From assembly GCA_001557505.1 (NCBI GenBank), contig LSAX01000005.1, positions 1 through 64,000 on the forward strand: a stretch of DNA of 64,000 nucleotides, read 5' to 3'. Made by a program: the position numbers and the translations under genes. Below, one piece after another: positions 15,332-44,837 of the stretch. The DNA is from Reticulascus tulasneorum (Eukaryota > Ascomycota > Sordariomycetes > Glomerellales > Reticulascaceae). The number at the start of each line of letters is the position of its first letter. Position 1 is the first letter of the stretch. The notes beneath the pieces are model-generated. The model searched no databases. It was not told the origin of the DNA and worked only from the letters and a program-made list of their open reading frames with translations.

Positions 15332-16788
15332 GAATTAATAAGGACGTTACACCAAATTGATTAGGACGTTATAACCTTAAAGACGTTACACTTTTAACCT
15401 TCCTTATTAGTTAGAAACTTTGTTAGCCTGCTAACTTATCTTACCAAAGGCGGTGAAACATTTATCCTTAACAATCAGCCTCTAAGCAAATTCTAACGTG
15501 GTGATATACAGCCTTTCATACCTATAAATATGAAAGATGGCTTTATAACGTTTACGTAAATTGTAATATGTAAGTATTATTTATAAGTATAAAAGGTAAG
15601 CTTATAACGGTGCTTACGTTAATTATAATATGTAAGTTGTAATATGTAAGTATTTATAAATTAAAATCTTTATTTATTAAGTATATTAATTAAATATAAC
15701 TAGATAATTCTATCTTTCTACGATTACGTTATTCTTTAGTTATTACTTTTTACTATGATAGACCTTATTTATATTAATATTACCTCTTTATCGCTTAATA
15801 TCTCTTATTATGATTATAATCTCTATATACTTAGCTAAGTCTTATATTTACTTATTTATACCTTAATAGTCTTCTTATATCTAAATGTTAACGTTTTTCT
15901 TTGGTTAGACTAACTATCTTATGGCTGGCTGGCTTTATTAGCCTAGCAGACGGCTAGAATTATCTTATTTAGACTTCTAAGTAGTCATCTTCGACGTTTA
16001 GCTTAGCTATCTAGAGGTTGACTAATTAGAAATAAATAATTCTAACGTTAACTTTTAACTATTAAAATTATATTTATAAATAATAACTAGATATTATTCT
16101 TTAATCGCCTACGAAGGTTGGTAATAATCTTTAGGTCTAAGATCTGCCGATATATGTTTATATTAGTAAGCTCTCATAGATATTATTATAGATAAACATC
16201 TTACTTAACAAAAAGCATTTTAATTATAAATACCTTATAAACTTTATGAAAGTAAAAGATATTAAGCTTAATTAATATAATATAATCTTTATCATAAACT
16301 CTTAGGTTTTCTAATTAGAGATTTGTTAAATTTAGAACACCTTTAAGTGTTTTTTAATATTACTTTATAATTAAGATAAGTCCTTTTTAAGATATTATAT
16401 TACATAAACCGCCTAGATATTCTACGTTTTTCCTTTAGTATTCTTAAGTTATAAAGATTTTATCTTATATATATTCTTAATAAAAACTCCTCTCTTAATT
16501 GTTAAATATATCTTAGATAGTTTTAACTAGGTAGTATAAATAGTTTATATCGTTAAGAAGATAACTTTTAATGTTATTATTATTAGTTTTTGTTTTAGAT
16601 GTTATTTAAATGTTAAAATTATGATATTTCTAGATAAAATAACGAGCTTATTATGCTTTTATGAATATATATATGTTATAAATATATATAATAATTATGG
16701 TTTAATTATCAAACTTGGTATATAGTAATACTTAGGCCTTTTCGTAGTCTTTTTTAGTCTTAATAAGTATTATAAGCTTTTATAATAT
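15332..16788 (-). mobile_element. MULE-2, 3' half of transposase with terminal repeat (RIP-degraded)
   Basis: Starts with a terminal repeat (15332-15420; gaattaataaggacgtta...) that is near-identical to the start of the element at 37634. On the minus strand, about 16100-16780 aligns by eye with the last third of the transposase of element A (motifs like KTIQDIFNNQE against KTIQDILTNQE), with stops at former Gln and Trp codons. It ends abruptly at 16788, where element A is inserted. Its missing 5' half matches the element at 37634-39705. Re-inverting the intervening 19.5 kb would rejoin the halves into one MULE of about 3.5 kb with inverted ends. Confidence 0.7.
16781..16788 (+). repeat. Half of target-site duplication TATAATAT (left flank of element A)
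   Basis: Does not match the right flank of A (TATACCTA). It is the exact reverse complement of the left flank of element B (ATATTATA at 39698-39705). Confidence 0.75.
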
Positions 16789-16879
16789 GGTAATTAATAA
16801 GGATGAATATTAAATCATTATAGACGAGTATATCTTAAAGATGAATATATAATAGGCCCTTCTGATTAGCCTAATTTTT
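16789..16879 (+). repeat. Left terminal inverted repeat of element A
   Basis: Matches the reverse complement of 20140-20230 along its length: ggNaattNataNgg, three GACGAGTA-type motifs, then ggcccttctgattagccta. Differences are mainly C/T or G/A. Confidence 0.85.
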
Positions 16880-19800
16880 ATTGTTAATATAGTTTATATT
16901 TTTCTTTTCTGCCGTTTTTTCTAATAGCTAGTTAGCTAATTACCTTAATTAATTAGTTTTATTAATTAACGTAATAACTTTTAAAGTTTAACCTACTATT
17001 TATAACCAAACTAATTATTTATAACCAAACCAACTTATATATAACTTCTTCTCTTATATAATATATTATCTACGATAATAGTTAATCTATAACCTAATTA
17101 CCTCTACCACTTCGATCTATTTTAAAGTTATTCTAAATACCTTTTTTAATATAACCTTCTTTAAAATCTAATTAATATATTCAAATTAAAAACCTTAAAA
17201 ATAGACTATCTTTTAAGACTAACTCTAAAAGTATATTTAGAAATAAACTATTAACTTCTAATATTATGATTAATATAAATAAATATTATAATATAAACGA
17301 TTATTTTACGTTTAATAATGTTTTTATAGCTTTTTTATAATGTTTTATAATTTAGCCGTAACTTTATAGATTTTAAGGACTTAATTAAGATCTTTTAAAT
17401 TTATAATATTTAAAGATCTACTTTAAGAATAAATTTAGAGGTTTATAAGTAGGTATATAATAAAATTAAACGTTTATTTTAAGCTTAGATAAGTTTGAAT
17501 ATATATTATAATAAGAAGTAATAAAGAGAGAGCTTCTCTTACTTAATATTAAAATTAAAAAGTTCTAATTAGTTATAACCTTTATATAGAAGGTTTTTAA
17601 GAAAGACTAAGAGTTAATAGCTAAAGTAGAATATAACGTTAAAATAGCTTAGAAATTATAAAAATAGGCGAAGTTTTAGTAAAAGAGATAAGGATATAGT
17701 TCTTTTATTAATATATCCTCTCCGTCTTAAGTTATATTATCTTTAATATTCTTATTATTAAATATAAAACTTTTTAATATTAATAAAAAGATCTTTAATC
17801 TTCTAATCTTTAGAAACTTAGCTAATATTATATAGGTTCTCTAAGATTAAGTTAACATATTTATAAAATTATATAATTATGATATGATTAGGTATATAAG
17901 TAATAACTAGAAAATAAAAACCTATATTAAGAAATATTAATATATCTTCTAATATGATCATTTTAGTTAATTAAAAATATCTAGAAATATTAATATTTAT
18001 AAACAAAAGTCTTAAAAATATAGTTATAAATAAAAGCTTATTATTAAGGTTTTTACGAAAAACGATAAACGGTAGACGTTACGAATATTCTTTTAACTAA
18101 AATATAATTAATATAATTATAAACTTAGCCTAACTTTATTTATATATTTAGTTTATTACAAACTAACTAATCTTATTAAGATAATAATTAAGTTTATAAG
18201 TTAATAAGTTAGTATTTAAATATATAATATTATTAATATTATAAAAGATAAGTTTCCGGACTTAGTATATATTATATAAGATATCTATAATATTAAGATT
18301 ATTATAATTTATAATAAGCTTAATAATTTTAACTTAATAATTATTTTAATTAAGTTTTTTAATAAGAAGAAGGTTTTATATATTAAGAAATAAGATATTA
18401 ATAGCCCTTATCGTTTACTTGGTTTAATATAAACGTTTTTATATTATATATGAATATAAAGACGTTATCTAGAGGTTATTAATTTTAATAATATTTATAA
18501 AACTAACCGTTTTAAACTTTTACTTTTCTAGGTTATTAATTAGATTTATTTAAGATCTATTTTTAATATAGTTTTTAATCTAATTAATAATAAAAAGTTA
18601 AAAGGCTTTTAGTTCTTAATAAATAATATTTAATAACTAATTAGCTAATATAAGATCTAGCTACTTAATATACTTATTATAGACTTCGACGATTAGATAA
18701 GATCTATATTTATTATTAAATTTCCTAATATTTAATAATAATTTTATATTTATTATATTAACTTTAATATATCGCTAAACGTTAAAAAGAAATAGGTTAG
18801 GCCTAAATAAGGTAATAATGATAAAGATAATTAGGAGCTAGATCGTAATTATATAATTAGCTAACTAACTAAATTAGTTATTTTATTTATGATTCTTAAT
18901 TATCTTTAAGACGTTCTTCAGATATAGAATATCTATAATATTCGTAAAGATTAAAGCTAAGTATGATAAAGCTTAGATAAAGTTATATAATAAGTTTAAA
19001 AACTAGGTTATGATTTTATTATATTTATAAAAGACTTATATATTTATATAAGAGTAATAAGCTAAATATTTTATTAAGAAATATTAAAACTTCGGTATTA
19101 AGATAATATCTAAGACGAAGGTTAATAATAATAATATTAAAAATTATCTTCTTAATAAGATATCTAGCTTATATAAATTAGTTAAGACTATCTAAGATAT
19201 ATTAACTAATTAAGAAAATAAGTTTCTCTAAGCTTATAAAAATAATAAGGTGTTAATAATATATTAATATTTTAATATTATATATCTTAGTTAACTTTTT
19301 CTAATAATTTCCTCTAAAAGGTTTAATCTAATTGTTAAAAAATACTAGAAAGCTATGTTTATTATCTTAACTAGTTTGAACGTTAAGCTATAAAAGATTA
19401 ATCTTTATATAGAAAAGCTATATATTATATTAATTAAGCTTAGGGTTTTATATTATTATAAGATTTTAGAAAAGCTTAAATCTAATATTCTATTATTATA
19501 ATTAGAAATCTATCTATATTAATATTTAAGAATATCGTAGTTTAAAAACTAATATCTTTAGATATTAGACCTAAATATTACGATCTACCTTTACAGACGC
19601 TTTAAGGTTAATACCTTTTGACTTATATTAATATATCTAGATTTTAAAATACCTACTCTTTAATATATAAATCTTATATAAGATTCCTAACCGGTTATCC
19701 TGTCTTAAATAAACGCTTGATGTCCTAGGCGACCGAAAGGAAGCTAGAATTAGAAAAGCGTTCTTAATATAAATAATATGATAAATATATATATAACTAA

Positions 19801-20139
19801 ATAAAGGTTATAACTAAATATACGGAGATAAAGGTCATAATAAGAGATAAATAATAATAAGGTGGAGATATTACCGGCCCCGCGTTAAATAAGATCATCT
19901 CTCTGGTAAGATTAATAAGTAATAAGGTCTAGGTTAATAACTATATTGTTAGAGATATGTATTATAATTAATATATAGAAACTTAAATAATATTAAGTTA
20001 CATTCTATGCTAATTTACGTTATTTCGTATATACTAATTAGCGTAAAATGATTAAGTAGTTTTTCAAATTTAGAGTTAAGTATAAAAGTTAGCAATTGTT
20101 AAAATAGATATTCTTACCGCTTTGGCAAACAGCTATCAG

Positions 20140-20230
20140 AAAAATTAGGCTAATCAGAAGGGCTTGTTATATACTCGTCCCTAAGATGTACTCGTCCGTA
20201 GTGATTTGGTACTCGTCCCTATCAATTGCC
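20140..20230 (-). repeat. Right terminal inverted repeat of element A
   Basis: The best-preserved end. Three direct copies of GGACGAGTA (minus strand) are spaced about 20 bases apart, near the edge where RIP effects fade into normal DNA. Confidence 0.85.
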
Positions 20231-20238
20231 TATACCTA
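20231..20238 (+). repeat. Half of target-site duplication TATACCTA (right flank of element A)
   Basis: Exact reverse complement of TAGGTATA, which follows element B at 43147-43154, and unlike the left flank of A. Confidence 0.8.
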
Positions 20239-21288
20239 CACATCAAAATATCATAAAACTCGTTTAGTTAAACATACTATTCAACCATTTGTCATACCCA
20301 AGACCTAGCCGTGCCAGAACACCACATGACTAGGTTAGAGTACCCTAGATGTCCTTGTTAGGCATCTCGCTCAGACTTTGTCATACCTGCAAGTAATGGG
20401 AAAACGCCTGTCCAAATCAGCCAGAAGGAATGACATGGGCAACAGTTAGCAAGTTGGCGTTCATTGGCGGCGGAAACACTTCTGCGACCGCTCCTTCGGC
20501 GGGTATAATTGGCGTATCAGGATCCATTCGGCGGGTGAAGCAGCTAGACGTTGGCACCACACGTGCTTCATCTAGCAAGCTAAGTTTCGAGATCAGTTCC
20601 GTAAGACAGGCTGCAACTTATTCCCAAAGGTGCCTTGGCTGGACGAGCAAAATGACCATGCAAACCTTCACATCTGTATTAAATAATAATCCGCAACTGA
20701 GCTGATACATTCTACTTGGCCAAGGGTTCAGAGGGTTATTCGTAAGAACCGTCGCGAAATTCGAGGAAGTGGGGACTCGTACTGCCTTAAATCTCGGGCA
20801 GATCCGTCCAAGCCCAACTGCCCTATCCTCGCGCCAATTATGGCGCGAGCTTCGCCCAGATTGCCGGGGGAAAGGAAGGCTAGACCTAGATCGCGACCGG
20901 CGTTGGTTCATAGCGAGGATTCAAGGATCACGGAGGAAAAATAAGAGTTCTCCGGACATGGCCGCCCCCCCACCTACCTGTGAGGCTGTAAGCCAAATGC
21001 GGGGAAATAGACGTCTCATCTTTGGCGCGCTTGGAGTAACGGCTATACCCCCGGTAATCTCTGCGGCGACCCAACCTTTGGAGAGTTCTCTCTGTCCGGT
21101 GTTTCGGGGGATCCAACCCCGCCTTGTTAACCGTAGGTAACCCAGGACCCGTCAACCACGCCCGTCTGAATCCAACCACATCACCGGCTGCAACGTATAG
21201 AGCGGGACCAGCTGCGTGCCGCCACAGCCGTTATCTGAACTACACTCACGTCGATGCTCGGTGCCTCTATCGGCGCACCGAAAGGGCA
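20239..21288. other. Intergenic, no gene seen
   Basis: Normal base composition. It contains several frames of 80-120 codons on both strands without family features. It probably holds the promoter and leader of the next gene. Confidence 0.5.
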
Positions 21289-23749
21289 ATGAATGGGGAT
21301 ACAGCGCGGAAGCTACAATGTTCGCTATGTCAGCGAATGTTCAGGCGCACCGAACACCTACAGAGGCATGAGCGATCGCGTATGTGTTTTCCTCCCCAAT
21401 TGTGACATCATTATCACACGCGGCTCTGCTAACCGCGTCCATAATACAGACCGCAATGAGAAGCCCTTCTCCTGTAGTCATTGTAATGCTAGCTTCACGC
21501 GGAAGGATCTGGTCAAGGTTCACACCATGCGGCACCACAAAGATCTCTTGCCCAATGAGAATCCATACCCGTCTCTCGAGAATGTGCCCCCCGGTGATCA
21601 GTCCTTCGATGCGTTCTACCGACAAGATCAGAGTCCTTTGATGTGGATGCCTTCAGGACACGAAGGACGTTATGGAGAGCGTCTCAGCTTGGGCAATATG
21701 TTTGCGACTCCTGACATCAACCTTTTGCAAGATATTGCGGACGAAGCCCCTGGCGCCATGTCAGCCGACTTGGGGAGTGGAGACGATAGAGTTAGTCTAT
21801 CCGAAACGCTGCCACCGAATCTAGCTGCTCCTAGGACATCTCTAGGAACCTCGGAGCCTATTCCACTGAACTATGAGAACTCCTGGCGGGGCTCTTTCGA
21901 TGTCTCGGAAGCCAAAAGGAGACAGATTGCCGAGGTGATTGCACTGACAACCCATCTGGTGAGCAACGTTTAATAACGCTTCAGCAAAAAGCAGTGATCT
22001 GAAGGCTAACATCCCATCACAGACGCAAGCAGAAGGTGATATGACTCTTCCGTCTTGTATGGCGTTCCGCCGCTTCACCGCCGCCTATTTTGAAGTTTTC
22101 TCCACCAGCTTGCCCTGCGTTCACAGTCCGACTTGGTACGGAGACGAACAGCAACCGGCCCTCTTACTTGCCGTTGCCGCCATTGGCGCGGGAACATGCG
22201 GTAAGATTGCACTCAGCTTAGCTCTTCATCGCATGGCTCAGTCATGTCTATGGAACCATGTAAGCTGTCTGTGAGCCAATCCGCCTCCACGGGTTTTTGA
22301 CAGGGTCTTTAAGCTCCACCTATGCCATTTCAACCCAGATGGACAACCGCTCTGGGTTGCTCAAGCTCTCCTGCTCGTCATGATATTTGGAACATACAGC
22401 GGGGAACCGGCTGTAGTTAAAGAAGTGCTCCCATTTCAGGTGATCCTGGCTAGCGTATGTTCACTGCTAGTCGCTCCAGCGCATGAACTGCTTATGCTGA
22501 CGATACCCGCGCAGATTGTGCGATCTCGGCAGTTCACCCGAGGCTCTGGGGCTATCGAAAAGCAGCTTCCGCAAATGTCTTGGGAAACATGGATTGATAA
22601 CGAGTCGCGAGTCAGGTTTGTCATACCGATGGGTGAACTTGCGTAGCTATCGCTATCACGCAACGACAACTAATCCTACATATATAGGACAGCATTCGCA
22701 GTATACGTGTATTTCAGTCAACTCAGCCTTGTCCATAACCTACCCTTTCCGCTGGTCAACTCCGAGATCGATGCGGATCTTCCTTCGAGTGAAGAGGAAT
22801 GGCATGCTGCGACTTTGGAAACATGGAGTCGTATCCGAGAACAAGCAGCACCCCATCCTGTTCGGTTTAGAGACTCATTAAAACTTATTAGCGACCAGGA
22901 TGCAGTGTCTGTCGGATATACCCCTTTTGGCGCCATTGTCATGCTTCATGCCACCCTGCAGTACATGTGGCATATTCGTCAGTGCAATCACGGCAAGCCA
23001 GTATTAGCTCAAACCAACTACCTCGAACGCATCTTACATAGATGGGAAGCCATGACAGATATCGGCTTGCGACAAGGGCATCTTAGTAATAAAGCGCTCC
23101 CCCGGGCGTTGGAGCTTGATGGAAAGGCGTTGCTTCAGTCTGCCTACTTTGCACTTTATACAAATATGACTTACTCGACACTTCGGTTTCTCGACCTAGA
23201 CGCCGACGGTATGCAAGCAGCAATCCAAGCCTTTGTCGAGACCGTTCCCAGATCACAATTCACCAGCAGAGCCGCCTTACACAGCCTCGACGTCCTTCTA
23301 GTGATATCCAACGACGGCTTCATGTGGACCAATAAAATCATGACGGGTGCTTCCAGTTTTCAGTTCCACATCATCTCCTCGTTACGATGCTGTTAGTCTG
23401 CCTAGAATACTCCCAACTTGGCTTTGGCGCCAACTGATAATCCCTAGGCTTATACTTGAGTAAATGGCTCGAAAAGCTTTACTCCGCCGACGCCACTAGT
23501 TGGACAATTGACGAAGAACAAGTCATAGCTTTGACGAAGACTACCGTGCAGGAGATCGACATCGACCAAGAATACTTCGAGTTACCCCTGCATATACAGC
23601 TCCTTTTTGCATGGTGCTGCATTTTCAGGAGTGCGAGCCAATTTGGAATTGCACCCGCCTTTGTCCATGCTGTTTGCAGATATGCAGACCAGCTAAAAGG
23701 AAATAAATCGTTAGGAGACACACAGCTTCTCGGACTAATGGATAGGTAG
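21289..23749 (+). CDS. C2H2 zinc-finger / Fungal_trans transcription factor (two junctions uncertain)
   Basis: Predicted nuclear regulator. Exon 1 (21289-21379) encodes finger 1 (CSLCQRMFRRTEHLQRH). A 70-bp intron with a CTAAC branch leads to exon 2 (21450-21958), which has the linker RNEKPF and finger 2 (CSHCNASFTRKDLVKVH). Exon 3 starts at 22023. Further exons are near 22304-22439, 22515-22615, 22688-about 23300 and about 23449-23749. They encode the helical Fungal_trans domain (PF04082-like): FRRFTAAYFEVF, LLAVAAIGAG, SWETWIDNESRVRTAFAVYVY, and NLPFPLV. Two joints do not work cleanly. Between 22259 and 22304 the natural 44-bp intron breaks the frame and only a 33-bp intron keeps it. Near 23300-23370 the frame shifts before the LLVCLEYSQ stretch. 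The gene may be damaged, or I may have misread these joints. Confidence 0.75.
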
Positions 23750-24906
23750 AATCTGGGAATCAAAATATGCAGTTTGTTCGATTGTGCTAGTGTCATCAAA
23801 ACAGGATCACGGATGTTATAAACTGGATATCGAAATTTTGGAGGCTGTATAGGAGCATATGTGCATAGATTATAGTCAGGGATCGGTTGTCGTTTGCTGT
23901 AGCTGGCAAATGTCCCGGGTGTATGGTGGCTAGATATCATGTAACTTGGCGTCGAGCGGACCAACCTACAAAATCAGCTCCAAATTCGGCACGATTTTGT
24001 GTCGATATGCCGATGTTAAATTCCTCTTTTCCCCTCGCTGTCCAATCTTTTGCGCTGAGCAACGTCGAAAGCTTAGCCTTGTGAATGGTTTGTACATATG
24101 TCAAGCCAACAATGAAGGGCCGAGCTGGACCAGGTGAGATTCATCTCGCATATCTTGATGTTGACGACTGTGACAATGGCTTTAGGCATTATTTGGACAA
24201 ATCCAATCCACATCGCTGCCTATGCTGTTGATGAGCTCCCTGATGATTCTCCCGCCATAATCGTATGAGCTTACATGTGGTGTTCCACTTGGCGAATGTG
24301 GTCAAATATCTTCTATAGAAATCATAATATCATTAGTAACCTAGAATTAGATGATTCAGTGTACTAGGCTACCATTACAATATCTTTAATATATATTATT
24401 TTATATTTTTATTTTTTTTAGTAGATATTCTGTAATTTGATATTATATCTAGCTAGATGCAAAAGAACTAGATATAGCCCTTATGAAAAAGTAGGTTTTA
24501 GACCTCTTCTTATATAAATCGAAATTGATATAGCCTTATATCTGCTAGGACTATATGATAGGTCTAGGCCTACCTTACCATACTTTTAACAGAAAGATAT
24601 CCAAATAACAAATAATAAGTAACAACTAGCAGCAACGTTTGACCTATTCCGTCATACTCGTTCCGTCACATATTTATGGTAATCCAGATATGAGATTATG
24701 TAAAGATTACTTTGTATAGACACAGACTAAGGTCCTGAGTAATGTTCTTACGAATAGCCTATTTATGCCCGCACTTCTAGGTCGAATTAGGCTATTTAGC
24801 CAGCTCGTTCTCGTTGATATCTACATCATCCGCAAAATTTGCATCGCACGGTCCGTCTTTTGGAAGATCCTCTTATCAAGATTGCTCAACCAACGAAGTT
24901 GCCAAC
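23750..24906. other. Intergenic 1.15 kb with an AT-rich patch
   Basis: No gene seen. About 24300-24600 is AT-rich and may be a short RIP-degraded repeat remnant. Its internal word gaactagatatagcccttatgaa has no obvious partner in this window. Confidence 0.5.
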
Positions 24907-26881
24907 ATGCAGCAGTCGGTCCTTACGCTTGTCTGTACTACATGTCTTGGATTATGGTTGGCCCTGACCGCCGCTTTGGAATGCCGCACGCCAGGACCGA
25001 GCTTTCCTTACCCGCACCTCGCGGATTCAGGGAGCTTTGCAAGCTCGGCGCACGATTTCACTAAAATGCTGGATGCTGCAATTGAGGGAAGCATAAAAGC
25101 TGGCTGGGAGGTTTCCAATGTATCATTCTCTATTGGAATAGTTTCCCGGGACCAACCCAGTGCCGATGTACCGATTTGGGAGTATCATCATCGGGGGTCA
25201 AACAATGTAAACGGCACCAAAGCCATCGACAGGCACTCTCAGTATCTTATTGGATCTATTTCAAAAGCCATCACAGTCGCAGTACTCTTGCGAAGTGGAG
25301 TGGACATCGACCAACCGATCACCAAGCTTCTTCCGGTTCTTGGTGATTCTCCATCACACATCTCATGGGACCTAATTACACTGCGCGCTTTAGCATCGCA
25401 CTTATCTGGCATCCCACCAAATTGTAGGTAGCTTCAGACAGGTTACTGTCGTTCATTGATACTAGTGGGTTTCGAACGATTGCTGATAGACTGAAGATGG
25501 CTTCTCGGAGTATTATTATTTCAAGGACTTCTTCGAGTACCTAGGCTTTCCTCGTATAAAGAACGAAGATTACTTGAAGTGTGATGTTATCAGCTTGAAC
25601 GAGGGCTGTACTAAACAGGGTATATAGTCCAGCCTCTCCTGTCTTGTAGTGTCATGGGAACAAGGGACAGCGCTGACAGATGCACCAGAGTATCTACAAG
25701 TTTTCAAAGAAATAAACGCGATAGCACCACCTATGGAACGACCAATCTACTCTAACATTGCATTTACTCTGCTAATGTACGCCCTCGGGGAACAAACCAA
25801 TAAAACCTACACCGAGCTACTTGAAGAATTCCTTACCAACAGCTTCAACATGACTGACACCTATCCAAGCCCGGGCAATTACGATCAAGCTGTAATCCCT
25901 TCTATTGACAATAACTGGGGATCCTCCTACTCCGAAGGGGCCCCAGGAGGTGGTCTTGTCTCTACGATCGCGGACCTTTCCATATTCATACATTCTATAC
26001 TTACTCGCACAATTTTCGAGACTGAATCTGCAGTTTATGAATGGCTCCAACCAAGAAGCTTCACTGGCGGCCCACATACTTTGTTCGGCATGCCATGGGA
26101 GATTTTTCGTCCACCACCAGAGACAATATTTTCAGAGCACAGCTCTGCGAAAGGAACCGGGCGTACACTGAACATCGTCATGAAAGATGGCGTTGCTTTC
26201 GGATATCACGCGCGGATAGCAATGGTGGACGAATATGGTTTCGGTTTCGCCATCCTGACAGCTGGAGACCCTCGGGCTCGAGAAATCCTTGGCAATGCCA
26301 TTCTGAAAACGTTCATTCCCGCCATTGATGACGCAGCAAAAGAGCAAACTAAGGAGCTAGGATACGTTGGATCTTTCGTCGACGCGTGCGGTAACGTTTC
26401 TTTCAACGCAACCTTGGTCGTGGACGAAACGAGTCTGGTTCTAGAATCCTTAAGCCGAAACGGCTTCAACATGATTGACTCGTTGATCATTGTTTTCGCT
26501 GTTAGCTGTGGCATACTGATTCCTGGCAATATTCCCGGCTTGCCACTCCGGCTTTATCCGACTCAAATCTCCACAGAATCCACATGGCAAGGCCGGGCCG
26601 TCACGATGGAAGAATGGCGCCTCGCCTGGAACGCAAGCCTGGATACGAACTCGGAATTACCTGGTCAAGACATTGGCGGCTATGACTGTCGAGCTTGGGA
26701 AACTATCGACTGGATATACTTTGGAAACGAAGCGATAGACAAGTTTGTTTTCGTGAAGGATTCAACGACAGGCGAAGTGCTTGGGCTCGATGTCCCATTT
26801 CTAAGAAGCAACGGGACGTCTGACTTGGTTTGTTGGCAAGATATCGAATATCTACCGAGGGAGTCGATAAGGGAGACATGA
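24907..26881 (+). CDS. Secreted beta-lactamase-like serine hydrolase
   Basis: Three exons: 24907-25423, 25497-25619 and 25680-26881. The introns are 73 and 60 bp and all phases agree, giving 613 residues. A signal peptide covers about residues 1-25 (hydrophobic, ending LTAALEC). The beta-lactamase / penicillin-binding-protein fold (PF00144) is shown by the nucleophile motif Ser117-Ile-Ser-Lys120 (SxxK), by RHSQYLIGS before it, by Tyr237-Ser-Asn239 (the YxN motif) and by the GAPGGGLVSTIADLSIF helix. The last 200 residues match the extra C-terminal domain seen in long fungal members. Such proteins are secreted hydrolases or amidases of unknown substrate and are often near secondary-metabolite or subtelomeric genes. 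Both active-site motifs are intact, so activity is plausible. The third motif (KTG-like) is not clear to me. Confidence 0.88.
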
Positions 26882-29640: not shown

Positions 29641-29853
29641 TGTGTTGGAGGAAACAGGCAGACGAGTTATAAACATAACACTCATATTGGATTCTATATA
29701 ATTGTCTCTATCAGAAGAAAGGTTTCTTGCAGCCTCAGCTATTCCTCTTAAGCCAATCCGTGTAGTGAACGTTTCCAAGTCTAATCACATCCAGACCTGC
29801 CAGATGCCAGGTATAATACTCGACTCACCATCCAGCCTGCCGCGAAGACGCTT

Positions 29854-33075: not shown

Positions 33076-33543
33076 ATGTTACTCGCACTCGCCTTCGGCG
33101 CCAGCGCTGTTCCCCTGTAGGTACTCGACGCTGACGTCATTTCAAGAAACGTCAACGGGACCAAAGTGCTGGAGGCCAGAGTTTTTGAGTACCTATACCA
33201 ATGGGAATGCGTCTCTGGCGGCGCCGGCGGTAGTACGGCTCTCAAGTGGATCCATGGCGGCTTCAACCGCGTCTTCGGCGGTGCAGCACCCAACATAGCC
33301 AAGGACCAGTGCTATGTTGCCGAATGCGGCGGCCTCCACTTTGCCGTTTGTAATTTTTCGTGCTGCACTCGAAAGGAGATCTCCAACGTTCGCAACGTCG
33401 CCAAGGACCGTGACTTACACAATGGAGACGAGTGCATGACCTCCCCCCAGCCAGCCGGAGGGGGCGATTCATATATCAGATACTACTTTGGAACGGGAAC
33501 TCTATATTTCGGCAGTATTAAACTTAACACACGATACTGTTAA
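33076..33543 (+). CDS. Cysteine-rich small secreted protein (effector-like)
   Basis: The ATG at 33076 opens a hydrophobic leader (LLALAFGASAVPL). In the same frame a TAG follows at 33118, then an open frame to 33543. A 63-bp intron (donor gtaggt at 33117, acceptor ggccag) removes the stop and keeps the frame. It gives about 134 residues with a mature part starting near VFEYLYQWEC. The mature part has eight cysteines (WEC, QC, AEC, AVC, SCC, DEC, RYC), consistent with four disulfides. It has Gly-rich loops and no known domain. Size, leader and Cys content fit a secreted effector or antimicrobial-type protein. The leader is short, and an upstream ATG (33004) would add a basic N-region. Function is unknown. 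Confidence 0.6.
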
Positions 33544-34760
33544 GCGTTGCGGCGGCTCTATAATATATGTTGGTGTTGTTTGACGCGAGCAGACGAATAG
33601 CTTCTTTTTCATATAGACAATCATTTACGGACATTCGCAAATAACAGAACTACTTGGCAAACCCTTTGAAATCGTTGACTAAGCAAAAGGGACATGGGTT
33701 GTTACAGAAGAAACTACGCAGGTTAGCTAGGTGCTCAGGTTGGCTGTGCGAAGCTTAGAGGGTAGAGATTTGTATATGGTCTCATTCAAAGCCTTTATTA
33801 GATGTAATCTCATCTCTTATGACCATGTAGCTTGAGCAGCAGGTACGTCTACCTCCCCTAGTTCCCATTTTGCCGCTTGAACTTGAACACGATCAATTTT
33901 ATCACGTTAAGTGCTATATTCCCATTGTCCTGCAGAACCCAGTCGAAGATATCACAGGCTGGGTCGCCGGAAGGTGCATGTCGGCGATAAAGCCGGTAAT
34001 GGCTCTGCGGGCATCGGGGTCACTGTCGGCATACTCGCGCCAGCCCTTGGCCAGGATGAAGGAAAGATCATTATTACGAAACGTTTTGTAAATGCCATTC
34101 CATTGGAAGCCTGGCCATCGTGTGGAAGCATCTTGACCACGGCGCCAAATCCGGCGAGGATGGCAGTAGGATGCTCGAGTGCGTTGTGTGGCTTGAGCGT
34201 TCTGCCCTGGTGGAGCTGCTGCTGGAGAGGGACTTCAGGATGCCAGGTATAGGCCAAGGGCCCTAGAGTTTGCCATGGACGAGGGTTTGGAATCTATGGT
34301 AGACCTCCGCAGCGATGGGTTGACTAACAATTTTGGCTTAGTGCAAAAGATTCCCACACATTGTTTACGCCGTAATTTCATTTTTGAAGCCTTAGACACT
34401 AAGGCCACCAGTGGATGGAGACCACTTTATGCGGTACACCCAGCTTAATGCCTCTGGTGTCTGAGCAAAGATAGTTGTCACTCTGGAACCAGATCTGGGA
34501 CCAGAGACAAACAGATCAAGCTCTTGGTCAAGCACCACTTAAGGCTCAGCAATCGAGACAACTATATTATCTATATAGACGGAGGATCAACGGATTCGTA
34601 GTGGTCGAAGGAAGCTGTACTCATCACAAGATTTCCTTAAAGTACTGCCTAACTGCATTAAGCTAATAGTGACAAAACTCAACAAATAACCTAGGTGAGA
34701 CCACCTTTTATGTGTCTGTGCACCAGAGAATGGACTTGTCAATAAACTGCACACTTGGTT
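33544..34760. other. Intergenic 1.2 kb
   Basis: A minus-strand stretch near 33950-34050 reads ILAKGWREYADSDPDARRAITGFIAD, which looks protein-like but is not continued by a proper frame. It may be a remnant of a lost gene. Nothing else was recognised. Confidence 0.4.
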
Positions 34761-36095
34761 CTAAGCTAACGCCATTCTTATTGGGCCTGTGACTGGGTCA
34801 GCGATATTGAGAGTGCACATCCACACCTTTCCAGAATTAACACCAATGGCTATGGTTCTACCCGACACGATCGAACATCCTGGCCGATACTCAAATGGTA
34901 ACCGTACTATATTCTTTGATTTCCATGTTATCCACTCTCCATCTGGACTCAAACCAATACCTTGATATTGCGGATTTCGAGGTTCTATGCTGAAGGCTGG
35001 TACACTCGAAGTTGATACTGTATTAAGGGCAACTGTACCAATATCAGTGTAAAGATTTGAGCTTGTAGTGTCGAATGATATCTTTTTGAGACTTCTCCCA
35101 AGATTGAGCATCTGCAGGCACACGCCGCTGCTAGTGTCCGAGATCCATACTGTGCCGTCGTCGAATCCTGAGGCAAGCTGAGTTGAGTCATGGGAGAAGG
35201 CGACCGAATGTCCACTATAGCCCTCGAGCCTCTGCAGGCACACGCTACTACCGGCATCCCATATTCGTATTGTACAGTCCTCCGATACTGACGCGAGCCG
35301 GGTCGAGTCGTGTGAGAAGACTACTGACCAAACAGCTCCTTCATGTCCCTCGAACTCTGCTAGGCACTCGCCACTGCCGGTATCCCAGGTCCGTATAGTA
35401 CAATCGTTCGATGCTGACGCGAGCTGTGTCGAGTCGTGTGAGAAGACTACTGACCAAACAGCTCCTTTATGTCCCTCGAACTCTGCTAGGCACTCGAACT
35501 CTGCTAGGCACTCGCCACTGCCGGTATCCCAGGTCCGTATAGTATGGTCCTGCGATGCTACCGCGAGCTGTGTCGAGTCATGTGAGAAGACAACTGACGT
35601 GGCGGAGCGATCGTTGCCTTTAAGCGTTGCTAGGCACTCGCCACTGCCTGTATCCCAGATCCGCACCGCGCCTTCGAATGAAGCCGACGCGAGCCGCGTC
35701 AAGTCGTGTGAAAAGGTCACTGACCAGACCGCCTCGTGCCCCTCGAGCGTCGCCTGATACTCGCTGCTACTAGCATCCCAGATCCGTACAGTATTGTCGA
35801 ACGACGCCGACGCGAGATATGTCGAGTTGTGTGAGAAAGTTACTGACAAGACGGTACCGCTGTGGCCTTCGAGCTTTGATAGGCACTTTCCGCTTCTGGC
35901 ATCCCAGATCCATACCCTGCCATCTGACGATCCCGATGCCAGACGGGTAGAGTCGTGTGAGAAGGCCACTGACCAGTACTGCACGTTGTGGCCCTTAAGA
36001 GTCACTAGGCATTCGCCGCTGCAAGCATCGCAAATATATATAGCGGCGTCTGGCGACCTGAACGCGAGCCTTGTTGAGTCATGTGAGAAAGCCAT
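34761..36095 (-). CDS. WD40-repeat protein, probably the C-terminal half of a truncated NACHT-WD40 receptor
   Basis: The frame of 444 codons starts directly inside WD repeats (MAFSHDSTRLA) and has at least seven units. Each unit has the pattern GHxxxVxSVxFSHDSTxLASxSxDxTIRxWDxxSGECL. Several are near-identical at protein and DNA level, as in fungal NLR-type (NACHT/HET) receptors whose repeats evolve together. A tandem 18-bp copy at about 35480-35515 doubles the residues ECLAEF. The last 130 residues form a non-canonical blade region. Upstream of the first Met the sequence turns within 30 bases into the AT-rich RIP block, so the N-terminal NACHT or effector part is missing. It could be expressed as a short protein but is more likely a truncated allele. 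Confidence 0.75.
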   Translation of the reverse strand: MAFSHDSTRLAFRSPDAAIYICDACSGECLVTLKGHNVQYWSVAFSHDSTRLASGSSDGRVWIWDARSGKCLSKLEGHSGTVLSVTFSHNSTYLASASFDNTVRIWDASSSEYQATLEGHEAVWSVTFSHDLTRLASASFEGAVRIWDTGSGECLATLKGNDRSATSVVFSHDSTQLAVASQDHTIRTWDTGSGECLAEFECLAEFEGHKGAVWSVVFSHDSTQLASASNDCTIRTWDTGSGECLAEFEGHEGAVWSVVFSHDSTRLASVSEDCTIRIWDAGSSVCLQRLEGYSGHSVAFSHDSTQLASGFDDGTVWISDTSSGVCLQMLNLGRSLKKISFDTTSSNLYTDIGTVALNTVSTSSVPAFSIEPRNPQYQGIGLSPDGEWITWKSKNIVRLPFEYRPGCSIVSGRTIAIGVNSGKVWMCTLNIADPVTGPIRMALA

Positions 36096-37633
36096 AGAGT
36101 TAATTAGTCTAACACTATATAACAGGTAGGTAGATTTATATAAGGAGATTAGTAATTTAGTCTTATAAGTAATATAAGAAAGCTTAGACTAGGTCGTATG
36201 AACAACATAGCAAACTACTTAATATAAGGTTATTAGCCATGTTACGTTATATAAGATCAACCGCTAATTACTTAATATTAAGCTAAGACGGCTTTTTAAT
36301 AACTAGTTAGATGAAAATACCATCATACGATATATAAACATATAGAAGAAAGTCATAAGCTACCTTTTCTAGATAGTAACCTCTATATACGAAGAAGAAT
36401 AATTCTATTTATTAATAAACGATAAAACCTCAGCCTTTAGAGCTCTTATTAAGCTAATTAGAAATCCTTAATCAAGCTAGATAGAAAGAATTAAAGTTAA
36501 TATCAATTAGATATTAATCAACTTAATTATATAACTCTTCAAACATCTTATCCTAAATAACCTATATATTAACATCTTAATTAACGTATTTACAATTATA
36601 AAGACTAATAAGAAAGGCGGTTAGGTAGATATATTTAATTATATATTAATCTACTTAATAATAATCAAAATAAGAAAAATAGTTATTATATAGTAGTTAG
36701 TCTTAGAAGATATAAAGGCTGGTATGAAATTAGATAAGATATTTGCTATTATATAATATAAAGTTTAATAATTTTTAGTAATTATATTATCAAGCTAAGG
36801 TTTAACCTTTTTCAACTAGATATTCGACATACGTTCATATAGACTAAAGATCTAATATTTAACATTAATAATAAGATATATATTCTAAGTAAGCTTAGAG
36901 GTTATATACGATAAAATTAGATTTTTAATAAACGGTCTAAATAAAATATTATATTGCTTTGTTAGAAAGCTTAGTTATATAATGGCCATCTTATTATTCA
37001 TCAAAATAGATAATTAATAACTACTTATCAACTAAGCCAAAATATAAGATAATATTAATAACAAAAAACCAGGATTTTCTTTTACAGATGACTTATGAAA
37101 TGATTAGATAGCTAATAAGTAGAAATAAATTATATAACAGATTATTAAGAACGAATAGTTATAAAGATAATAGTTATCTAATAATGATAAATATCTAATA
37201 TATTATATAAGGATAATTAAGGTTTATAAAAAGGTACTTAATAGTTTTTATAAGAGGTTGTTTATGGTTATATATATACTAAAAAGGCAACCAGTTTATA
37301 CGATAAAGATATTTAGACTTTAGATAATAAATACTTTATATAATAGGTTTTAAAACATCTTTATATAAAATGGTCTAATATGTTTTATTATTACATATTA
37401 TAAAAACTATTAGAATATAAAAATTATTAAGATTATCTATTGGTTTTTACCTTAGATAGTAAAACTAGATAAGATAAAATAAATACGTTTTACTATAGAC
37501 CTATTATAGCTAGCCTAATTAGGCTTAGATATATGCTTACATATATATTGATTATTAATCTTTTTTATATTTAGTTATTTTTATAGTTTTTATTAACACG
37601 TTTGGAAGTATATTCGCAAGCATATTTCATAAA
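36096..37633. other. RIP-degraded AT-rich sequence, possible helicase-like remnant
   Basis: No intact frame. Around 37370-37450 (plus) the translation through stops gives ICFIITYYKNY..IKIIKIIYWFLP. This weakly recalls the VFVTRYHKGY...KIIHRYLPREVGEL block of fungal telomere-linked helicase genes. The likeness is short and interrupted, so the assignment is tentative. Confidence 0.3.
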
Positions 37634-39705
37634 GAATTAATAAGGACGTTATACTAAATTGATTAGAACGTTATAACCTTAGGGACGTTACATTTTTAGC
37701 CTTCTTTATTAGCTAGAAACTTACTTGTTAGTATATATAATACGTATTACTAATTCTACCGTTGTTAAGTAACTGCTTATTAATTCGTTAATTTAGACGT
37801 ATTAATTATATACGATCTTTTCTATTTTACCTTTTATACTTATAAGTATAAGAGGCTGTATACCTTATAGGTATGAAAGCTTATATATATGCCTTCTTAA
37901 GATATAATTATTATTAATATAGGTCGTTAATGAAGCCTAATTATCTTATTTAATAACTCTTTTGAATAGCTGATATTAATAAACTTAGAACGATTGTTAA
38001 TAAGCTTTCAGCTTTAATAAGAAGAATGGTAATATCATATTAATGGCCTAGGAAGTATATCTGACGAATGGTTTAAGGTATATTACCTTTTTAGACCTAA
38101 TGATATAATAAATAATAAGATTTTAGGTATTTAATAATATAAATTAGATATCTATATTAAGAATGAATATTATATATTAATATATTAACTAAGTTAATAA
38201 CTTTAGTATATTAATATCTTTATTTTAAAACTAATTAAGATATAAGATTAGTAATATCCTAGCTAATAGAGATATGACCTTATAGATTAGACTATTTTAT
38301 TAATAACCTATTAGTTTGTTAAAATAGACCTAGATCTTACCGTAATATTCGTTTTAAGTTATAAATAACAACGTCTTAAGGAAGAGAACGATTGTTAATT
38401 ATAGCTAAGTTAAATATATTTTTTATTATAATCGATAATAACTTCTTTCTTATTTAACATCTTTGCTTAGGTAAGAGAAGAATAATAATATAACCTATCT
38501 GATATTAGCTTAAGATCTAACGTTATTAGCTTAATCTTAAATTTATTAATTCTTAATAACTTAGCTTTATCTCTTAACGTTCTTTTCGTTAAAGTTAACA
38601 AATTTGTAAAACCTTATAATTTTAATATTATTAAGGCTAATAATATAATTTGGCCAGGATAATAAAGCTAATATATTTTCTAATATAATCGATATAGAAC
38701 CTCTTAGTAAGGTAGAGATATTAGCTTTTAGAAACGAAGATCTTAGAAATCTAGGTGTTTATAGAAGATTGTTGCTAAATCTTTACCGGAGAATAATTTC
38801 TAATAGACATTAAAATATTTCTTAGATATAAAGCATTAAGAATATAACTATATACCTAATACCGACGTTATAACCTATCTAACTTATTGAAAACTTATTA
38901 GTCTAATAAAAACGACCATCAGATTAACTAGTTAATAGATTAGTATTTATATATAATATGTTAATAACATTATATAATATTAATTCTCTAATTTGGTTTT
39001 CATATTAAAGGACTTCTATAATGTTTATATTTATATTAGTTAAGAGATATTAAGCAATTATAATCTTACTGTTATATTGATTAAGTTGTTTAATAAGAAG
39101 GAAATACTTTATATTATTAAATAAGATAAAGATAAGTTTGACCATTTGGTTAGACTAATATAGACCTTTCTATATTATGTTTAGATGTGGAACCATTTCT
39201 TAGAGGTGATTAATATTAATAATATATATAATATAAACCGTTTTAAGTTACTATTATTCTAAGTTATTAGACAAACCTACCTAAAGACTGTTTATAACGC
39301 TATATTCGGACTAATTAATAATAAAAAGCTTAAAGGATTTTAATTTCTTATTAAGAGCTTATATACATTGTTTAACTAATATGATATCTAACTACTTAAC
39401 GTTATTATTAATGATTATGATAAACAGATAAAAGTAGCCTTTAAGTTAGAATTCTTAGATATTTAGTAATAACTTTATATCCATCATATCAATTTAAACG
39501 TAATATTATAATTAAAACGGAAATAGAGATATATTATTATTAATAACGATAACAACGAGGAAAGTAATAATATTATACCAGATATTATACTTAACTAAAA
39601 AGATTATTACTTAATATAAAACTCTTAAAGTTAAGAACAACCACTTACCTTAGACAACTTGCTTCCATTTATACTTTATAATTATTATAAAATATTTATA
39701 TTATA
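37634..39705 (+). mobile_element. MULE-2, terminal repeat and 5' half of transposase (RIP-degraded)
   Basis: Begins with the same 89-bp terminal repeat as 15332-15420, including GGACGTTA-type motifs. The plus strand shows a second, distinct MULE transposase through stops: NIYNINRFKLLLFQVI (D1 region) near 39220 and NDYDKQIK.AFKLEFLDI then two former Gln then LYIHHIN near 39410-39500. The sequence stops at 39705 where element B starts. Its missing 3' half is at 15332-16788. Confidence 0.75.
39698..39705 (+). repeat. Half of target-site duplication ATATTATA (left flank of element B)
   Basis: Exact reverse complement of TATAATAT at 16781-16788, and different from the right flank of B. Confidence 0.75.
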
Positions 39706-42700
39706 GGTAATTAATAAGGATGAGTACTAAATCATTACGGACGAGTATATCTTAAGGATAAGTATATAATAGGCCTTTCTGATTAGCTTAATTTTTCTAA
39801 TAGTTATTTGTTAAAGCGGTAAGAATATCTGCTTTAATAATTACTAATTTTTATACCTAATTTTAAATTTGAAAAACTACTTAATCATTTTACGTTAATT
39901 AGTATATATGAAATAACGTAAATTAGTATAAAATATAACTTAATATTATTTAAATTTTTATATATTAATTATAATATATATCTTTAATAATATAGTTATT
40001 AACTTAGACCTTATTATTTATTAATTTTACTAGAGAGATAATCTTATCTAACATAAGGTTAGTAATATTTCCGCCTTATTGTTATTTATCTTTTATTATG
40101 ACTTTTATCTTTATATATTTAGTTATAACTTCTGTTTAGTTATATACGTACTTATCATATTATTTATATTAAGAACATTTTTCTAATTTTAGCTTCTTTT
40201 TAGTTATCTAGGACGTTAAGCGTTTATTTAAGATAAGATAACTGGTTAAGAATCTTATATAAGATTTATATGTTAAGGAGTAAGTACTTTAAAATCTAGA
40301 TATGTTAATATAGGTTAAGAAGTATTAGCCTTAGGACGTCTGTGAAGGTAAGTCGTAATATTTAGGTTTAATATCTAAAGATATTAGTTTTTAGATTATA
40401 ATATTCTTAAATATTAACGTAAATAGATTTTTAATTATAATAATAAAATATTAGATTTAAGCTTTTCTAAAATCTTATAATAATATAGAACCTTAAGCTT
40501 AATTAATATAATATATAACTTTTCTATATAAAGACTAATCTTTTATAGCTTAACGTTTAAGCTAGTTAGGATAATAAATATAACTTTTTAATATTCTTTA
40601 ACGATTAGACTAAGCCTTTTAGAAGAAATCATTAGAAAAAGTTAATTAAGATATATAATATTAAAATATTAATATATTATTAACACCTTATTATTTTTAT
40701 AAACTTAGAGAAATTTATCTTCTTAATTAATTAATATATTTTAGATAGCCTTAATTAATTTATATAAGCTAAATATCTTATTAAGAAGATAATTTTTAAT
40801 ATTATTATTATTAACCTCCGTCTTAGATATTATCTTAATATTAAAGTTCTAATATTTCTTAATAAAATACCTAACTTATTATTTTTATATAAATATATAA
40901 GTTTTCTATAAATATAGTAAAATTATGATTTAGCCTTTAAACCTATTATATAACTTTATTTAAGCTTTATTATGTTTAGCTTTAATCTTTATGAATATTA
41001 TAGATTTTTATATCTAAAAAATATCTTAAAGATAATTAAGAATTATAAATAGAATAACTAATTTAGTTAATTAGCTAATTATATAATTATGATCTAACTT
41101 TTAATTATCTTCGTCGTTATTACTTTATTTAGGCCTAATTTATTTCTTTTTAACGTTTAACGATATATTAAAGTTAATATGATAAATATAAAGTTATTAT
41201 TAAACGTTAAGAAATTTAGTAATAAATATAAATCTTATCTAATTATTAAAGTTTATAATAAATATATTAAGTAGTTAGATCTTATGTTAGTTAATTAGTT
41301 ATTAAATATTATTTATTAAAAACTAAAAACTTTCTAACCTTTTATTATTAATTAGACTAAAAACTATATTAAAAATAGATTTTAAATAAGTTTAGCTAAT
41401 AATCTAGAAAAATAAAAGTTTAAAATGGTTAGTTTTATAGATATTATTAAGGTTAATAACCTCTAAATAATATCTCTATATTTATATATAATATAAAAAC
41501 GTTTATATTAAACTAAGTAAACGATAAAGGTTATTAATATCTTATTTCTTAATATATAAGACCTTCTTCTTATTAAAAAGTTTAATTAAAATAGCTATTA
41601 AGTTAAGATTATTAAGCTTATCATAGATCATAATAACCTTAATATTATAAATATCTTATATAATATATATTAAGTCTAGAAATTTATCTTTTATAATATT
41701 AATAATATTATATATTTAAATACTAACTTATTAACTTATAAACTTAATTATTATCTTAATAAGACTAATTAGTTTATAATAGACTAAGTATATAGATAAA
41801 GTTAAGCTAAATTTATAATTATATTAATTATATTTTAATTAAGAAAATATTTATAATATCTACTGTTTATCGTTTTTCATAAGAGCCTTAATAATAAGCT
41901 TTTATTTATAACTATATTTCTAAGATTTTTATTTATAAATATTAATATTTCTAAATATTTTTAATTAACTAAAATGATTATATTAAAAGATATATTAGCG
42001 TTTCTTAATATAAGTTTTTATTTTCTAATTATTATTTATATACCTAACTATATTATAATTATATAATTTTATAAATATATTAACCTAATCTTAGAAAGCT
42101 TATATAATATTAGCTAAGTTTTTAAAGATTAGAAGATTAAAGATCTTTTTATTAATATTAGAAAGTTTTATATTTAATAATAAGAATATTAAGGATAATA
42201 TAGCTTAAGGTAAAAAAGATATATTAGCAAAAAAGCTATATCTTTATCTTTCTCGTTAAGATTTCACTTATTTTTATAACTTCTAAGTTATTTTAACGTT
42301 ATATTTTATTTTAATCGTTAATTCTTAATCTTTCTTGAAAACCTTTTATATAAAGGTTATAACTAATTAGAACTCTTTGATTTTAATATTAAGCAGGAGA
42401 AGTTTTCTTTTTATCGTTTCTCGTTACGATATACGTTTAAATTCGTCTAAGCTTAAAATAAATATTTGATTTTATTATATACTTACCTATAAACTTCTAA
42501 ACTTATTCTTAAAGTAGATCTTTAAATATTATAAATTTAAAAGATCTTAATTAAGTCTTTAAAATTTATAAGATTATAACTAAATTATAAAATATTATAA
42601 AAAGGTTATAAAAATATTATTAAATGTAAAATAATTATTTATATTATAATATTTGCTTATATTAGTTATAATATTAAAGGTTAACAGTTTACTTCTAAGT

Positions 42701-43146
42701 ATATTTTTAGAGTTAGTCTTAAAAGATAATCTACTTTCGAGGTCTTTAATTAGAATATATTAGTTAAGTTTCAAAAAAGGTTATATTAAAGAAAGTATTT
42801 AAAATAACTTTAAGATAGATCGAAGCGGCAGAGGTAATTAAGTTATAGATTAACCGTCGTTATAGGTAATATATTATATAAGAGAGGAAGCTATATATAA
42901 GTTAGTTTAGTTATAAATAGTTAATTTAGTTGTAAATAGTAGGTTAAACTTTAAAAATTATTATGTTAATTAGTAAAACTAATTGACTAAGGTAATTAGC
43001 TAACTAGCTATTAGAAAAAGCGGCAAAAAAGAAAAGTATGAACCGTATTAACAATAAAAATTAGGCCAATCAGAAAGGCCTATCATATATTTGTCCCTAA
43101 GATATACTCGTCCGTAATGATTTGGTACTCGTCCTTATCAATTGCC
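39706..43146 (-). mobile_element. Element B: Hop-like MULE transposon, inverted copy of element A, RIP-inactivated
   Basis: 3441 bp against 3442 bp for A, in the opposite orientation. The left end (39706 onward) is the counterpart of A's right end, including the aagcggtaagaatatct subterminal stretch. The right end (about 42840-43146) is the counterpart of A's left end, including gcggcaaaaaagaaaag and the cgaagcggcagaggtaatta segment. Internal blocks such as 40200-40400 and 19560-19740 align as reverse complements. The transposase on the minus strand is full of stops. Confidence 0.85.
43056..43146 (-). repeat. Right terminal inverted repeat of element B
   Basis: On the minus strand it reads ggcaattgataaggacgag and then two further GACGAGTA/GACAAATA-type motifs and ggcctttctgattggccta, matching both ends of A. 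Confidence 0.85.
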
Positions 43147-44837
43147 TAGGTATAAACCACAGGATTCCCGTAGTTGATTAAACATTTTTAATTCGAGGTT
43201 TTCTTTGAATTTCTCAAGTCCATCAACCTCAATTTCAAAGCCTGTTATGGGATGTTAGCAGTAAATACATAGCATTGTTTAATGTGGAACGAATATTCAC
43301 CTTTACCAATTGCTCCAATTGTGATACTGTTACCCCTTCCTGCATTCAACTTCAACTGAATAGCAACCGAGCTGCGTTGCCCTGCATTCGAGTTGAGAAT
43401 CGAAATGTTAACCGCAGGTTGGTCATTGGCAATAACGTAAGCATCTCCATCTGGGACTCAAGTATTATCAAGCGTGCAGGTATCCGGTGCTATTGTAACA
43501 TGTACCCTGGGATTCATTGGTTTTGTAATGCAGGCGGAACCACTGCTGAGAACCGCTGCCATGTATGTTGCGGAAAACGACTTTGTTTGGGCCAGTAACT
43601 GCGAGAACGCGTCAGTAGAACGGCACCATAATGAAATCGGCTCTTGGGGTACCTTGATGAACTGAGCGCAAGCTACGACAAGAGGCACAATTTCTGACAG
43701 CTTTTTTTCTGATCAGCACTTCAATAATAACGTCGAGTTGTATGATCAGTGAGACTTACGCGACGTCAACCACCAACGGAAGCCAAACATAAGTCGACCC
43801 AAGTCCACCATCCGAAACCCAGCGGTCACCCATGTAGATGTGAGTTGTTTTACCACAGCCTTTGATAGCCAATTCATGAGTGTTCTGTGATTGATATGTG
43901 TTTGTTGACGGGGTAGCAATATCGGTGCCTCCTATCCACGGACCGCTGGTAGAGTTTGCCCAGTACACCTTATTGGGATTGTGACGATAGCCTGTCTTGC
44001 CAGAGACGATCATAAAATATATACCACCCTCCTTTAACATCCCGGGAGCTTCAAGTGCTCCTGACTCTTATCTGAGTATTAGTAGTTTTACTAACGAATG
44101 GTATCCAAAGACATACGTAGAACTGAAACTCGAGTTCCCAAAGTTCCGTTGGGGAAAACTGTGTTCACCTGCACGGTGTTGGACGCGGCGCTTGTGAGAA
44201 CATACCATATGTCTAACAATTATATGGGTTAGAAGACAATCATTTCGTGGATTGCCTTTGCTTACTTGTATCTTCGTCGAGGAAGATGCCCGTGCCGGAG
44301 TGGGTGAGATTGTTGGGAGGTAGGCCAGTTTTGGCGACCTTTTGATATGGACCATCGATTTGAGGCGAGTCAAGAGTGAGTACTAAACGGCTTTGTTGGC
44401 CATACAACTATACAGCAGCACCAATTAGATATGACCCATGGAATCTGGAATCAGGCTAGGATATGTATAAAGAAGTTGTCGTTTGGTTGGGCGATTTTCG
44501 GCCTCCACACTTGCGTGAAGGATGGCGCAATGTGCCCAACTTTGGCCCAGTTCAAAAGGTCACTCGACGAATAAAGTGTGGGCGGGACATCTAGAACTCT
44601 GTTAAGGCCAGGTATTGTTTGGTCTGACTTGGTGCTTCACTCACCGCCGTATTGCGAAGCATTGCCAGCTCGGTTATGGCCAATCCAGTAAAAGATGTTG
44701 CCACGTTGTAAGATTTGGCCCCCATGAGCATCAATCTCATTCCCTTCTGTGTCATACCAGACCGCGCCGGAAGCGATCCAGGATACACCAAGGACATTGG
44801 TTGATGCAAGTAGGAACAAGAGTATATCTCGAAACAT
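43138..44837 (-). pseudogene. Secreted GH43-family glycosidase with CBM35-like domain, carrying lesions
   Basis: The start at 44837 gives a signal peptide (MFRDILLFLLASTNVLG) and EIDAHGGQILQRGNIFYWIG, the hallmark opening of fungal GH43 galactan-galactosidase-like enzymes. Exons I can join in frame: 44837-44645, 44596-44266, 44212-44117, 44060-43760, 43693-43653, 43598-43506, 43450-43307, 43241-43138. Later blocks include YSSSDLLNW, HSGTGIFLDEDT, LEAPGMLKEGGIYFMIVSGKTGY and a C-terminal CBM35-like module (ANCASC, VVFRNIHGSGSQQWFRLHY, NSITIGAIG). In exon 2 a 7-bp tandem duplication (44439-44452) and two stops, TGA at 44451-44453 and TAG at 44408-44410, break the frame. Both stops fit C-to-T changes of CGA and CAG. 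The reading frame now ends inside the end repeat of element B. The substrate is inferred as galactan or arabinogalactan side chains. Confidence 0.75.
43147..43154 (+). repeat. Half of target-site duplication TAGGTATA (right flank of element B)
   Basis: Exact reverse complement of TATACCTA at 20231-20238. It lies in non-RIP sequence with normal base mix, so the match carries more weight than the AT-only pair. Confidence 0.8.

Follow-up and report, generated by a model that had tools for sequence, protein, structure and literature searches.

The subtelomere of Reticulascus tulasneorum examined here raises two questions: whether 19.5 kb of DNA lying between two inverted copies of a MULE has been flipped, and if so, whether crossover between the copies or the transposase itself flipped it. 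The window (a stretch of 64,000 nucleotides) is the start of contig C17 in a genome of 42.8 Mb in 35 contigs, and its position 1 is a chromosome end, given the telomeric CCCTAA repeats at 1 to 119 on the plus strand (20.7 copies of a 6-bp unit by Tandem Repeats Finder). Two AT-rich blocks, at ∼15 to 20 kb and 36 to 43 kb, have 14 to 26% GC in all 12 of 12 1-kb steps, compared with mostly 43 to 61% in the DNA around both, and each block contains one MULE copy. An LTR-like repeat adjoins the telomere (120 to 878); elsewhere it forms at least 10 copy pairs ∼14 kb apart on the same strand, a spacing that suggests a long element with direct terminal repeats. A degenerate tandem array occupies 5982 to 7232 (overlapping periods of 26 to 186 bp, strong GC skew), and the top protein match of a sugar transporter at 46210 to 48120 was from Truncatella angustata (85% identity over 83% of the query). 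An Rfam scan of the window returned nothing at the gathering score.

The two MULE copies, A (16789 to 20230, plus strand) and B (39706 to 43146, minus strand), are both decayed. They had been described in the first-pass annotation as inverted copies of near-equal length, and indeed they align over 3440 bp at 87.9% identity in inverted orientation. Terminal inverted repeats of ∼91 bp are 81% identical within A and 89% identical within B, and the MULE transposase domain PF10551 was found in both above its cutoff of 27.6 bits (A: 18475 to 18762, 42.3 bits; B: 41173 to 41460, 35.6 bits). The features by which MULEs are recognized are present in A and B, namely PF10551, long terminal inverted repeats and an 8-bp duplication (the last in crosswise pairing only). 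The domain also occurs in a further element, MULE-2, whose right half carries it at 39206 to 39496 (50.8 bits). Stops interrupt PF10551 in A (11), B (11) and MULE-2 (7), leaving no open transposase gene, and all three are MULE relics rather than autonomous copies. In a genome search with A, which gave 41 rows altogether, the full-length matches were A itself and B, the others being shorter and diverged, and a genome-wide search with a 32-base terminal-repeat pattern (RIP-type states and up to 2 mismatches allowed) gave four matches, 4 of 4 being ends of A and B. So the A/B family has two recognizable full copies in the 42.8-Mb genome, DNA counts being lower bounds.

Almost all divergence between the copies is of one kind: the 417 differences comprise 414 transitions, 2 transversions and 1 one-base gap, so A and B would have been almost identical before RIP-like decay. 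Low (CA+TG)/(AC+GT) and high TA/AT ratios are generally read as signs of RIP. The former was 0.27 and 0.26 in the two copies compared with 1.18 in the gene island between them, and the latter 1.31 and 1.30 compared with 0.82; depletion of CpA/TpG was strong in A and B and absent from the island. The most common context among visible differences was CpT, not CpA (226 of 414), as would be expected with CpA almost exhausted. By these measures, the 88% identity of A and B reflects RIP-like decay. Terminal repeats adjoining MULE-2 were decayed at 18 and 15 of 41 sites, and those adjoining unique DNA at 3 and 7 of 41. As flanks move with ends, this neighbor-dependent decay fits decay either before or after a flip.

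The flanks of the two copies were compared at lengths of 3 to 20 bp. In place, the neighbors of A share no match longer than 3 bp, and the neighbors of B share none. Paired crosswise, each set of flanks is identical over exactly 8 bp and no further, in agreement with the first-pass annotation, which had reported perfect 8-bp pairs. Duplication 1, TATAATAT, lies to the left of A (16781 to 16788, plus strand) and is the reverse complement of 39698 to 39705 to the left of B, where its inverted second copy (minus strand) reads ATATTATA on the plus strand. Duplication 2, TATACCTA, lies to the right of A (20231 to 20238, plus strand) and is the reverse complement of 43147 to 43154 to the right of B, its inverted second copy (minus strand) reading TAGGTATA on the plus strand. 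The four flanks are thus exchanged just as a flip of the interval demands. The possibility, raised earlier, that the ends were mis-set and each copy is flanked by normal 9- to 11-bp duplications was looked for at the same lengths, and no such duplications were found. Both duplications start with TATA. One random 8-mer match has a probability of 3.8 × 10−4 in AT-rich DNA and 1.65 × 10−5 in host DNA, or 4.8 × 10−3 if TATA is imposed as the start of the right-hand target.

At the left-hand site, the flip is required by data independent of the duplications, namely a paralog on contig C1 and the ends of MULE-2. The left half of MULE-2 (15330 to 16788, plus strand) has its terminal repeat at 15330 and ends at A; the right half (37632 to 39705, minus strand, including duplication 1) has its terminal repeat at 37632 and ends at B. 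These repeats now lie on the same strand, so that a flip turns them into inverted ends, and their pattern occurs in the genome at just these two places and once on C4 with 2 mismatches. Searched separately, the halves landed on adjoining stretches of C1 that overlap by 8 bp (15722 to 16788 on C1:2021100-2022173, 81% identity, plus strand; 39368 to 39705 on C1:2022166-2022503, minus strand). When the two flanks were joined with a single duplication, they gave one C1 alignment of 1407 columns at 80.6% identity, with small gaps elsewhere, none at the junction, and a single TATAATAT. This diverged MULE-2 copy without A is an unoccupied paralog of the left-hand site, and with the alignment gapless at the junction the donor site shows no deletion or duplication. 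B aligns through the MULE-2 junction (positions 1164 to 2623 of MULE-2, 66%; junction after 1459), as does another C1 element (positions 1224 to 2101, 64.5%), and A aligns to MULE-2 as collinear pieces flanking that junction. To judge from these alignments, MULE-2 was formerly continuous across the site where its halves now end at A and B. At the right-hand site, a genome search with each flank returned only that flank itself, and no reading frame was seen by eye to cross the junction of the joined flanks; as each flank matches only itself, the case at this site is the 8-bp match.

Together, the exchanged duplications and the C1 paralog, which spans the predicted junction without A, strongly support an inversion. 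The segment at 20231 to 39705 (19,475 bp, no strand assigned; genes to ∼36.1 kb, then repeats) is almost certainly inverted relative to an earlier order, and the central claim of the first-pass annotation is upheld. The earlier order would have been the subtelomeric repeat S, the left half of MULE-2, a MULE copy, the right half of MULE-2, an LTR-like piece, the gene segment in flipped orientation, a second MULE copy and the right flank.

Crossover between inverted copies is a textbook, general and well-documented route to an inversion, and recombination between the two copies was the cause first proposed. Two inverted and then nearly identical MULE copies would have been in place, one in MULE-2 (with duplication TATAATAT) and the other 19.5 kb away (with duplication TATACCTA); these would have paired and crossed over within the chromosome, flipping the interval, and RIP-like mutation would then have decayed both. 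Inverted copies at both breakpoints and exchanged duplications speak for this route. That only two recognizable full copies exist, both at breakpoints, is not something that crossover requires, and it counts against it. We put the chance that crossover between two preexisting copies caused the inversion at about even. Of the original proposal, the fit of the map to a crossover stands, but hybrid-element insertion gives the same exchanged duplications, and the following tests did not separate the two routes.

To map a crossover, the decayed copy was scored at each of the 414 transitions along the element (2000 shuffles). The share decayed in A steps at position 492, from 0.71 to 0.36 (as extreme in 0 of 2000 shuffles), and falls again beyond position 3000 (10 of 67); the decayed strand changes at position 418 in B (21 of 2000 shuffles), with no such change in A (1538 of 2000). 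These steps were not taken to prove a crossover, the pattern tracking the neighbors of the ends. Alignment of A with B in search of a crossover point, a check proposed at the outset, found none within positions 501 to 3000, where the share decayed in A shows no shift (782 of 2000 shuffles as extreme). Among columns of the terminal repeats, 6 informative ones group the ends by neighbor, 2 by copy and 1 by element side, and 13 are singletons. The two repeats facing MULE-2 share 12 decayed sites compared with 9.2 expected (nominal P = 0.0006; P = 0.034 once 40 sites are stratified by context, five pairs tested), and the two ends of B share 6 compared with 3.7 expected (P = 0.049, five pairs tested). 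The sign of Galileo-like chimerism in the terminal repeats was not decisive, its P value having risen from 0.0006 to 0.034 after context stratification.

The main alternative is that a single action of the MULE transposase produced the second copy together with the inversion and the exchanged duplications, by hybrid-element insertion or a replicative equivalent. A lone MULE would have resided in MULE-2; once it was replicated, its two sister copies would each have contributed one end to a joint insertion 19.5 kb away, flipping the DNA between, with RIP decaying the pair afterwards. The map predicted by our derivation of this event equals the observed map exactly. According to Delprat et al., hybrid-element insertion in which both copies occupy a single site has an outcome strikingly like that of ectopic recombination but leaves copies that are identical rather than chimeric (PMC2775673). 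Copies identical at birth are thus predicted, and beyond the 414 transitions A and B differ only by the 2 transversions and the one-base gap, although near-identity at birth would also be expected of recent independent copies. A two-copy family at the breakpoints is expected too, and all 4 of 4 matches to the terminal-repeat pattern are these ends. Two copies nearly identical at birth fit both routes and are predicted more directly by a single event. The mismatched flanks of MULE-2 (see below) could be another such accident, and RIP would probably leave similar copies little time to recombine. Against this, the excess sharing between the repeats facing MULE-2 (12 decayed sites compared with 9.2, P = 0.034) leans weakly towards chimeric copies, but the ends of B show excess sharing too, five pairs were tested, and RIP edge effects can produce such sharing. 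Nor is a MULE known to us to have inverted DNA in a single step, within a non-exhaustive search. In favor of the single event, a fungal case of alternative transposition has been recorded, that of impala in Fusarium (cited in PMC8225341). A transposase-driven origin is thus a serious contender, to which we would give a little less than an even chance.

An assembler that crossed between A and B, creating exchanged duplications absent from the organism, is a very unlikely source of the pattern. A flip made within the two copies during assembly would leave identical signs, but A and B differ in 417 of 3442 columns with a longest identical run of 81 bp, the contigs inspected measure 2.4 to 5.3 Mb, and telomere repeats open 5 of the 6 contig starts listed; large contigs with telomeric starts suggest a long-read assembly. 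Least credible, and largely refuted, is the absence of any inversion (two unrelated insertions whose flanks match through chance or a target preference, and a MULE-2 whose halves are separate fragments): TATA at the start of both duplications makes target preference possible and the outer flanks of MULE-2 are unmatched, but the C1 empty site accounts for duplication 1 independently, a second 8-bp match by chance has a probability of 1.65 × 10−5 in host DNA and 4.8 × 10−3 even with TATA forced, the MULE-2 terminal-repeat pattern is confined to these two places and the one 2-mismatch match on C4, and a mosquito MULE with 8- to 9-bp duplications, tested elsewhere, showed no apparent sequence preference in the data presented (PMC5225508).

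Inversion of the A/B interval leaves one feature of MULE-2 unexplained by itself. The first-pass annotation held that the flip makes MULE-2 whole, and this is so for its interior, continuous in the C1 paralog, and for its inverted ends; its outer flanks, however, remain unmatched even when the interval is flipped, and the rejoined element is not a clean insertion. On the left, its end cuts the subtelomeric repeat S (14948 to 15329, plus strand; genome copies compared), and 4 of the 4 S copies listed (C3, C2, C34 and C1) run past the cut point; no continuation of S beyond the cut was found within the window. On the right, MULE-2 cuts an LTR-like repeat (37453 to 37631, minus strand; copies aligned), which has 32 other genome matches, one of them at 710 to 881 of the window. 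The unmatched flanks point to further rearrangement besides the A/B inversion. The simplest account would be a deletion at MULE-2, separate from that inversion, perhaps through recombination between two MULE-2 copies or through aberrant transposition. Should the A/B inversion be transposase-driven, these flanks could be the trace of a similar accident in this subtelomere. A second piece of S lies near this telomere (876 to 1000). The S at 14948 to 15329 is inverted relative to that piece and to the S copies close to the starts of C1, C2, C3, C15, C32 and C34, as though an earlier rearrangement had struck this subtelomere.

The gene-bearing part of the inverted segment spans ∼20.2 to 36.1 kb, the segment also holding the right half of MULE-2 and the LTR-like piece. 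Six genes had been named there from the reading frames. Two of these identifications hold above Pfam cutoffs, beta-lactamase (PF00144, in both frames, 24814 to 25431 and 25649 to 26881) and WD40 (34761 to 36095, strong). The C2H2 regulator (21293 to 21973, E = 0.0019) and the bZIP factor (PF00170, 28420 to 29076, 25.7 bits with a cutoff of 27.6) fall below theirs, as does a Fungal_trans match at 22707 to 23396 (E = 0.017). No Pfam match was obtained for the frames taken as the propeller gene (29854 to 30825 and 30822 to 31268) or for the two candidate effector-like frames (31816 to 32274 and 33166 to 33543). The WD40 reading frame begins at the edge of an AT-rich block and contains similar 126-bp tandem repeats (35221 to 35598, 88% matches), resembling in this respect fast-evolving fungal WD40/NLR genes. 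A minus-strand gene ending at 43245, presumably a glycoside hydrolase by its appearance, found no Pfam support for that assignment in four pieces.

Inversions with exchanged target duplications are already known, and this one is unusually well supported from one genome. Galileo inversions of Drosophila buzzatii, 2z3 for example, are bounded as here by two inverted cut-and-paste transposon copies whose target duplications have been exchanged; for Galileo, sequencing extended to the uninverted chromosomes and showed the copies to be chimeric, whereas here the flip is read from a single genome, and the element is a fungal MULE with RIP-like decay bounding a 19.5-kb segment (as far as Galileo is described in PMC2775673). 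P-element hybrid-element insertion and Ac/Ds alternative transposition, in which transposase makes an inversion in one event, likewise leave element copies at both breakpoints (as outlined in PMC2775673 and PMC8225341). Reversed-ends transposition of two Ac copies, in contrast to the present locus, loses the intervening fragment and has matching duplications at the new junctions in the accounts given there (PMC2775673, PMC8225341); the single-site, sister-chromatid form of transposition would fit here, not the reversed-ends form. Hop-type ascomycete MULEs are reported with 8- to 11-bp duplications and, in one subgroup, terminal repeats of 85 to 99 bp; A and B resemble them in the MULE transposase domain, the ∼91-bp terminal repeats and the 8-bp duplication, and differ in being decayed (PMC6446971, for the elements treated there). 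Among the literature matches listed, none reported an inversion in a fungus with MULE copies at its ends and exchanged duplications; most subscription journals lay outside the search, and no priority is claimed. One paper reportedly links deletions in citrus to MULE activation (PMC4334395).

A past inversion can thus be established from a single genome where exchanged duplications occur together with an unoccupied paralog of the donor site, and the locus offers a case in which sister strains could tell crossover from transposase-driven inversion. In a RIP-competent fungus, crossover would need two similar copies to last until pairing, whereas a single transposition event would make the copy and the inversion together. 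If this latter reading is true, the locus would represent a hybrid-element inversion that a fungal MULE made in nature.
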